Notes under the pieces: generated by a model
Database searches by the model: none
What the model was told of the DNA's origin: nothing
What the model saw: the letters and a program-made list of their open reading frames with translations, nothing else
Made by a program: the position numbers and the translations under genes
Source of the DNA: Oscillospiraceae bacterium
GTDB taxonomy: Bacteria; Bacillota; Clostridia; Oscillospirales; Oscillospiraceae
Assembly: GCA_017416325.1 (NCBI GenBank)
Contig: JAFQCV010000076.1
Coordinates: forward strand, 1-38,058
Direction of reading: 5' to 3'
Length of the DNA: 38,058 nucleotides
Part shown: piece by piece, positions 32,099 to 34,164 of the stretch
Numbering within the stretch: the stretch's first letter is position 1
Layout: each line of letters begins with the position of its first letter

Positions 32099-32524
32099 TT
32101 AATTACTGGAATCTTCCAATAATTTCTTAAGAAGCTGCGGACTTGCCTGATGATAAAGCTTCCCATCGAATTTGATGTTAGGACCTTTTCCGCACATACG
32201 CATACAGGGAACATAGGAAACAGAGATCTTTTGGCTTTCCAATTTTTGAGCAGCCTCCCCAATGGCTCGGTGTTTGCTGCAATTCGGGCCGGAGCAAATC
32301 TGCAGAACATGGGTATCCCCAAGGCGCAGACTGGGGATCCGGCGGATCAATGCCAAAAGAAAACTTTCCTTGACCCCGAAATTTACAGCAACCCGAGGAA
32401 TGGCAAAAAGGGGAATAGAGCCGCCGGACTCCTGCTGAACTTCCTTCAGAAGATTCATAATTGTATTTTGATCGGTGCCCAGAGTTTTGTAATAGGCGAT
32501 GGCTTCTTCCAAGCTCCAGCTCAT
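32099..32524 (-). CDS. Stand-alone NuoE-like thioredoxin-fold [2Fe-2S] protein
   Basis: 141 residues. The N-terminal helical part (about 1-65: QNTIMNLLKEVQQESGG, IPRVAVNFGV) and the C-terminal thioredoxin-like domain follow the 24-kDa NuoE/HydC subunit. The cluster ligands are C77-X4-C82 and C107-X3-C111 (ICSGPNCSKH, PCMRMCGKGP), the complete NuoE set. No NuoF or hydrogenase subunit is present. The start overlaps the stop of the RACo-like gene (ATGA), with AAAGGAG before it, so the two are translationally coupled. It most likely acts as an electron donor to that partner (inferred). Confidence 0.88.
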   Translation of the reverse strand: MSWSLEEAIAYYKTLGTDQNTIMNLLKEVQQESGGSIPLFAIPRVAVNFGVKESFLLALIRRIPSLRLGDTHVLQICSGPNCSKHRAIGEAAQKLESQKISVSYVPCMRMCGKGPNIKFDGKLYHQASPQLLKKLLEDSSN

Positions 32525-34071
32525 GAATGATGCTCCTTTATTTGTAAACGCTCTCGAACAGAGGGATAACGGTTTATGTCCGTATGGGGGATAAATTTTG
32601 CCGCCTGCATACGGATCAAGAAATCGGGAATGGAGGCAAACTGTACGCAGTAGAGGTTGCTTGCCAATTCCCGCGCCTCTTTCAGCTTGCTTCTGTCTAA
32701 CAGTAAAAGCTGAGCGCCCTCTAAGGAGGTGTTGGCAATGCAATGATACCGGTCCCGGGGAAGATCCGGGAAAATACCAATGGTTATGGCGGATTCCAAG
32801 TCAGAGTGAGCCGGGAAAGCGCCGGATAGGTATACCTTATCCAGTTGTTCCGGTGAAATTCCGGCAGTTTCCAGCAGACACTCTACCATGGTGTAGGCTG
32901 CTGCCTTGGTGTCTAAATACTGCCCGATGTCTGTTTGAGAAAAATACAGCGGTGTTTCGGTGGCAGATTCGGATGCCGGCGCATAAACGGCAGCATACTC
33001 CTGTTCCTCTTCCAGATATACGATCCGGTCAGAAGCGCTGGGAGTTAATTGTCCGGCGGCGTCGATCCACCCGTTGATCCGCATTTGCGCCATCAGGTCA
33101 ATGATACCGGAGCCGCAAATTCCCACAGGCTTTGCGCCGCCAATGGTGGTAAAACGCAGCTTGTCCTGTTGGATCGCTACGGAATCTATGGCGCCTGCTT
33201 GCGCCCGCATACCGAACCGGCTGATGTAGCCTTCCAAAGCAGGGCCTGCCGCGCCGGCACCGGCCAGTATCCAGTCCCGATTCCCCAAAACCAGCTCTCC
33301 GTTGGTGCCGATATCAAAAAACAGGCAGGTTTCCTCTTTTTTGTGGATACCCAGCACCAAAAGACCGCTGATGATGTCACCGCCAATATAGTTTGAGGCG
33401 GCAGGGAGGATATATACCAAACCTGAAAAATCCAGCCCCAGTTCCTGTCCCCAAAAGAAACCGGGATCAGAACAGACCGGCGCAAAGGGAGCTGCAAATA
33501 CTGTCCAGGTATTCAGTCTCAGCAGAAAGTGGATCATGGTGGTATTTCCCGAAACGGTCATCACCGGACACAAAGATGTGTCGATTCCGGTTTGCTCATA
33601 TAGCCGGGCCAGCAGGTCCTGAAATGTCTCGATGGTTGCTCTGTGTAAGACCTGCACATGGTCCGGGTCTTCCAGTGTGTAGGTGATTCGCGTCAGAATA
33701 TCAGTTCCGAAATCGGTCTGACGGTTCACAGCCTTTTCCTCGGCGACCACTGTGCCGGCGTTTAGATCCACCAATCGCATCACCACGGTGGTAGAGCCGT
33801 AGTCTACCGCAAGAGCATAGTGGTGTGCGCGCCGATCACCGGCTTCCAAATCGGTGATGACCCATTCCGTTTCCCGGAAAACCAAGGTGACGGTAAGATC
33901 GTTGTTGTCCCGGCATAGGGGATATAGCTTACCCAATATGGGCAAGGGAAATTCTACCGGCGCATATCCAAGGTCCTGCAAGGCGAGCTGGATGCGCCGT
34001 TGATCGCTGATGGGGGCATCTTCCGTTGGCGGAGTCAACTGTAGAAAGACTTTTTCGCTGAGAAGCGCCAT
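32521..34071 (-). CDS. RACo-like ASKHA ATPase (reductive activator of corrinoid proteins) without N-terminal [2Fe-2S] domain
   Basis: 516 residues. It begins directly with the linker/middle region of RACo proteins (SEKVFLQLTPP) and continues into the ASKHA domain. Phosphate-1 loop ALAVDYGSTT (D90), then NTTMIHFLL, YIGGDIISG, LFFDIGTNGELV (phosphate 2), AGAAGPALEG and GICGSGIIDL, and C-terminal VYLSGAFPAHSD. RACo and RamA use ATP to drive reduction of inactive Co(II) corrinoids. The usual N-terminal plant-type [2Fe-2S] domain (about 90 residues with CX5CX2C) is absent. AAGGAGG fixes the start, and the frame upstream has no cysteines of that type. It is coupled to the NuoE-like gene. Confidence 0.88.
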   Translation of the reverse strand: MALLSEKVFLQLTPPTEDAPISDQRRIQLALQDLGYAPVEFPLPILGKLYPLCRDNNDLTVTLVFRETEWVITDLEAGDRRAHHYALAVDYGSTTVVMRLVDLNAGTVVAEEKAVNRQTDFGTDILTRITYTLEDPDHVQVLHRATIETFQDLLARLYEQTGIDTSLCPVMTVSGNTTMIHFLLRLNTWTVFAAPFAPVCSDPGFFWGQELGLDFSGLVYILPAASNYIGGDIISGLLVLGIHKKEETCLFFDIGTNGELVLGNRDWILAGAGAAGPALEGYISRFGMRAQAGAIDSVAIQQDKLRFTTIGGAKPVGICGSGIIDLMAQMRINGWIDAAGQLTPSASDRIVYLEEEQEYAAVYAPASESATETPLYFSQTDIGQYLDTKAAAYTMVECLLETAGISPEQLDKVYLSGAFPAHSDLESAITIGIFPDLPRDRYHCIANTSLEGAQLLLLDRSKLKEARELASNLYCVQFASIPDFLIRMQAAKFIPHTDINRYPSVRERLQIKEHHS

Positions 34072-34119: not shown

Positions 34120-34153
34120 GTAAAACAGGAGGGGCTGTGGCTTACAGCCTCTC
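34120..34153 (-). terminator. gltS terminator
   Basis: AAACGGGAGAGGCTGT pairs with ACAGCCCCTCCTGTTT, followed by TACG on the minus strand; on the plus strand GATTTTTATTT follows. The 50 nt after it before RACo contain only a weak promoter-like TATAAG. Confidence 0.6.
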
Positions 34154-34164
34154 CCGTTTGATTT

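Follow-up and report, generated by a model that had tools for sequence, protein, structure and literature searches.

A cluster-free RACo-type ASKHA protein overlapping a NuoE-like [2Fe-2S] gene belongs to a stable clade without the iron-sulfur domain

Among the closest described systems is RACo, or AcsV, the reductive activator of CoFeSP (PDB 3zyy, 4c1n; NF040756). In the RACo-CoFeSP complex, Ser398 of RACo binds the Co(II) of CoFeSP (PMC4934906, excerpt). RamA-like or RACE proteins (DUF4445) are activators of methyltransferase corrinoid proteins and of MetH (Price 2018, PMC5764234, excerpt). The activator of corrinoid-dependent methyltransferases has been described with one [2Fe-2S] or two [4Fe-4S] clusters, and in O-demethylases the activating enzyme together with ATP moves the potential of the corrinoid upwards, from -530 mV to -250 mV (both from an excerpt of PMC6739815). 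Our literature searches returned nothing plainly describing a cluster-free RACo, which is no proof of absence. MutL of glutamate mutase is an ASKHA-type protein as well and is also tied to a B12 enzyme; it is present in the genome studied here (G000), and it differs from the protein described below in belonging to another family (PF13941) and in sharing a separate operon with a small B12-binding subunit.

The window, by which we mean the whole 38,058-nucleotide stretch of this Oscillospiraceae genome that was analysed, encodes on the minus strand a 516-aa cluster-free RACo-type ASKHA ATPase (32521..34071) and a 141-aa NuoE-like [2Fe-2S] protein (32099..32524), coupled through a 4-bp ATGA stop/start overlap (32521..32524, minus strand). 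The original prediction described an ASKHA protein lacking the Fe-S domain of RACo whose stop overlaps the start of a NuoE-like gene, and both the domains and the overlap confirm it. The four NuoE cluster cysteines that it noted in the neighbour are also present in the sequence (Cys77, Cys82, Cys107 and Cys111), and its statement that no methyltransferase is adjacent agrees with a scan of 15 window proteins besides the pair, only part of the ORFs, in which no such family was found. Greedy gene picking at this locus chose an antisense ORF instead of the NuoE-like gene. A strong terminator-like hairpin (34123..34159, minus strand; -23.5 kcal/mol, z -4.95) separates the upstream transporter-like gene from the ASKHA gene, suggesting that the two genes are transcribed as a separate unit; the terminator-like pattern scan as a whole gave 4 sites against a shuffle mean of 2.8, hardly above shuffles.

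Compared with RACo, the window ASKHA shares the linker, middle and C-terminal domains and the ATP motifs of the ASKHA fold, for both phosphate and adenosine, which the alignment shows to be conserved across its clade. It differs in giving no match in the Fer2 domain search, in carrying alanine at the Ser398 position, in scoring 386 bits against the NCBIfam AcsV cut-off of 800, in lying outside the acs cluster and in occurring in a genome that has AcsV too. Its RACo domain order minus Fer2 was seen both in the domain search and in structure comparison, the latter a second look with VIA-align on ASKHA and NuoE-like models built from 19 and 3 sequences, respectively.

The absence of the Fe-S domain extends well past this locus. 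The species-genome scan yielded 32 loci with 57-81% identity to the window ASKHA, and pooling the species-genome, genus and class searches gave 69 distinct RACo-type ORFs: 42 short rows, including three partial copies (L035, L159, L160), and 27 others, with L032 and L034 left out as too short. The Fer2 cysteine motif, sought as C-x4,5-C-x2-C ahead of the linker, is absent from all 39 distinct full-length short sequences and present in all 27 other RACo-type sequences. In a tree of 64 of the 69 rows, the short (39), AcsV (17) and methyltransferase-linked (8) sequences each form one group with support of 100/99 or better, the root being a midpoint root only and a long-branch warning applying to short rows L120 and L121 against the AcsV side. 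The missing Fe-S domain is the mark of a stable clade and no local split: many gut and acetate-making bacteria have the same cut-down ASKHA protein, and the clade appears to extend to an Acetobacterium-like genome. Because the domain is absent clade-wide, no recent hand-over of a lost domain to the NuoE-like neighbour took place in this lineage, which speaks against the proposal that the electron-transfer domain had been replaced in trans by that neighbour.

The short clade also departs from RACo at the cobalt-binding residue. In the alignment, the Ser398 position holds alanine in all 39 distinct short sequences (41 rows when two partial copies are counted), serine in 17 of 17 AcsV sequences and alanine in 9 of 9 methyltransferase-linked activators. 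The window residue assigned to this place by alignment is Ala274 (codon 33250..33252, minus strand), and since the model has pLDDT below 50 at residues 274-290, its proposed equivalence to Ser398 rests on sequence. With alanine for the cobalt-ligating serine, an exact copy of the known RACo-CoFeSP chemistry is impossible for the short clade.

The NuoE-like gene adjoins the short ASKHA in three of 39 loci (the window, L003 and L004, all with the identical 4-bp overlap), a count that includes five loci (L014, L015, L020, L025, L116) ending less than 450 bases past the short ASKHA, where adjacency is not visible; a search of the genomes of these five found no NuoE-like relative. Regardless of its place in the genome, a strong relative was found in 7 of the 38 short-ASKHA genomes, being confined to two sister species among the 24 outside the genus set, and one further short-ASKHA genome gives a weak match at 29% identity. 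Of the 61 genus genomes, 20 encode a NuoE-like relative, 15 of them without a short ASKHA, and the 19 genes besides the window's are orphans, none beside a short ASKHA. Association between the two was weak there: NuoE-like genes occur in 5 of 8 close-short genomes and in 15 of the other 53 (p 0.10) or, when all short genomes are counted, in 5 of 14 and in 15 of the other 47 (p 1.0). Co-conservation of the pair, as the two-part proposal would require, is not what these counts show, and the NuoE-like protein is probably a local neighbour rather than the universal missing half of the short ASKHA. In the three species where the two genes adjoin, it may act as electron donor for the short ASKHA.

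With NuoE, HydC and FdhG (PF01257) the NuoE-like protein shares the four cluster cysteines, conserved in every one of 26 rows, as well as the two halves of the NuoE fold, and its PF01257 score of 36.2 bits exceeds the gathering score of 24.8. In contrast to these proteins, it reaches 29 bits where the nuoE_fam cut-off is 142, has no NuoF gene beside it and stands mostly apart from true NuoE in a tree where good support is confined to 5 of 23 inner branches: of the four rows with a true NuoE label, three lie apart on a long supported branch, and the fourth sits among the orphans on a long branch. A shared upstream partner was rejected, as the six same-strand upstream neighbours of the NuoE-like gene fall into five unrelated families in five cases and have no match in one. 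Pairing with a distant NuoF-type enzyme was provisionally set aside, because both NuoF-type genes found in G000 adjoin a NuoE of their own. A co-occurrence of the orphan NuoE-like gene with the NuoF-type PF10589 remains at genus level (15 of 20 against 12 of 41, p 0.001), unexplained since the G000 NuoF-type genes have their own NuoE.

The host genome encodes, in its CoFeSP gene cluster, a 643-aa AcsV with Fer2 (905 bits, cut-off 800), so a full-length activator already exists in this genome. Each of the 14 genus genomes with a short ASKHA also gives an AcsV-type match, whose open frame runs to at least 641 codons, Fer2 having been checked in the G000 copy only. In the genus, the methyltransferase-linked activator class tracks corrinoid proteins of PF02607 (24 of 24 genomes against 2 of 37); neither this class nor a PF02607 match was found in G000 (86% complete), and PF02607 is absent in 7 of 8 close-short genus genomes. 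Relative to RamA-like or RACE proteins, then, the short clade has the ASKHA core in common, as well as the alanine seen here in the corrinoid-protein-linked class, but neither the N-terminal ferredoxin motif nor the PF02607 link of the genus members.

Two corrinoid targets were considered and rejected. MetH reactivation would call on PF02965, which occurs in 1 of 61 genus genomes, and with no PF02607 match in G000 (86% complete) we found no MetH target. That sole PF02965 (the MetH reactivation domain), on C5 of G050, lies near a PF02607 match in an 835-codon open frame. Glutamate mutase was set aside because it has its own MutL: the only PF02310 match of G000 is the small subunit in an operon with that MutL. 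Other evident corrinoid targets are missing as well: besides the scarcity of PF02607 in the close-short genomes, G013, G021 and G029 (99, 99 and 76% complete) have no PF02310 match.

The distribution of the short clade points towards CODH/ACS. CdhD, of the CoFeSP subunit family, was found in 34 of 38 short-ASKHA genomes and gave no match in 4: of the genomes behind named short-ASKHA loci 19 of 22 have it, of the genus genomes with a short ASKHA 13 of 14, and of the class sample both other short-ASKHA genomes. The base rate is 18 of 291 genomes in the Clostridia class sample, which includes three of the 38. The genome of L010, one of 30 distinct scan genomes, was left out of the CdhD and P0002 counts, and the genus class lists (short and AcsV-type) were read by hand from search output. 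In the class sample, short ASKHA and CdhD are associated even with the window left out (Fisher 0.003), a result resting on two genomes from a single genus. Inside the window's genus the two show no association (p 0.67), CdhD being nearly universal there (53 of 61 genomes), so the CODH/ACS link rests on deeper, non-independent lineages. The two genes are physically separate: they lie on different contigs in the 13 genus genomes that have both, and more than 360 kb apart in G188 and G278.

We favour, tentatively and at somewhat less than an even chance, a reading in which CODH/ACS bacteria have in this ASKHA a RACo paralogue without the cluster, one that needs an external donor or does not itself transfer electrons. 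The original prediction differs from it in taking the ASKHA and NuoE-like proteins as a dedicated two-part corrinoid activator, with the NuoE-like [2Fe-2S] cluster feeding electrons to Co(II). We regard this as unlikely, even though the 4-bp overlap is retained in three species at a dS of about 1 or more, the pair stays constant while the preceding gene varies (L003 and L004 have an M48 peptidase there, the window has the transporter-like gene), the cysteines are kept in all 26 rows and the terminator-like hairpin stands upstream. Against it are the adjacency in 3 of 39 loci, the strong relative in 7 of 38 genomes and the weak genus association; these three species have other neighbours in common too, so that their adjacency may amount to a single event. 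Thus the cluster-free ASKHA overlapping a [2Fe-2S] gene stands, whereas the two-part system fares poorly: of three findings named beforehand as speaking against it, two were made, namely a pair that is not co-conserved and a full-length RACo in the same genome. The third, a NuoE-like protein that pairs with a distant hydrogenase, is opposed by the NuoE genes adjoining both G000 NuoF-type genes and favoured by the genus co-occurrence.

The short ASKHA might also be a non-reductive partner or regulator of AcsV, either as a linker heterodimer borrowing the Fer2 of AcsV or as a brake. Its retained linker domain, the AcsV-type protein in all 14 short-ASKHA genomes of the genus and a distribution that tracks CODH/ACS would suit such a role, but the gene is unlinked to the CoFeSP genes in all 15 genomes where both places are known, and we hold this alternative to be improbable too, to about the same degree as the two-part activator. 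Less probable again is a non-corrinoid target, with the ATPase now serving a different low-potential or metal enzyme in anaerobes. The absence of the cobalt-ligating serine in 39 of 39 short sequences would fit, yet alanine occupies the same place in 9 of 9 methyltransferase-linked activators; G013 and G021 have neither searched corrinoid family besides CdhD, and no clade-wide neighbour family appeared among the ten scanned. To our knowledge, the characterised proteins with the same linker, middle and C-terminal ASKHA domains all act on corrinoids, which argues against this reading.

Under the favoured reading of a cluster-free RACo paralogue, the short clade accompanies CODH/ACS (CoFeSP) genomes, which thus have an additional, unlinked paralogue besides full-length AcsV. 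Since the ATP motifs are kept, the mechanism we consider likeliest is a corrinoid switch driven by ATP and supplied by an external donor. The anatomy, the clade, its distribution, the want of a general pairing and the presence of AcsV are observed; the ATPase activity, the corrinoid target and the donor we infer. Most likely, the short ASKHA would bind ATP and carry out on a corrinoid protein the ATPase part of the cycle already described, either to shift the Co(II)/Co(I) potential or to free a stalled complex, and the electron would be delivered by a separate soluble donor, which the ATP-driven rise of corrinoid potential in O-demethylases makes plausible. In the three sister species, the orphan NuoE-like [2Fe-2S] protein now in the same operon may be one such donor, and other members of the clade would work without it. 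A more specific version, in which the short branch is an ATP-driven corrinoid switch of CODH/ACS bacteria with a donor interchangeable in trans and the window's species group has fixed a NuoE-like donor in the operon, strikes us as rather doubtful; if true, this species group would be a natural place to catch a two-part machine. With the ATPase kept, the cluster and the cobalt-binding serine missing and CODH/ACS still followed, the ATP step of corrinoid activation would part from the electron step, a separation testable in a model acetogen where the short ASKHA seems to occur.

Several minor observations came from the surrounding gene neighbourhoods. Across ten neighbours at eight loci, no common neighbour family of the short ASKHA was found; the sole MTTB-family methyltransferase gene among these ten belongs to G278, 149 bp downstream of its short ASKHA (L156:9912-11369, plus strand). 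The glutamate-mutase-like operon of G000 (L158, C37) has its small B12-binding subunit and MutL assigned by Pfam, next to GlmE-like and methylaspartate-lyase-like genes named from their sequences only. On C48 of the same genome, a 757-aa ORF with FeS, CdhD and Pterin_bind domains (L157:9103-11376, minus strand) is predicted to join the large subunit of CoFeSP to an AcsE-like methyltransferase in one chain, the AcsE reading coming from the domain. In the acs cluster, a DUF3786 protein (L157:6465-7142, minus strand) directly follows the full-length AcsV gene.
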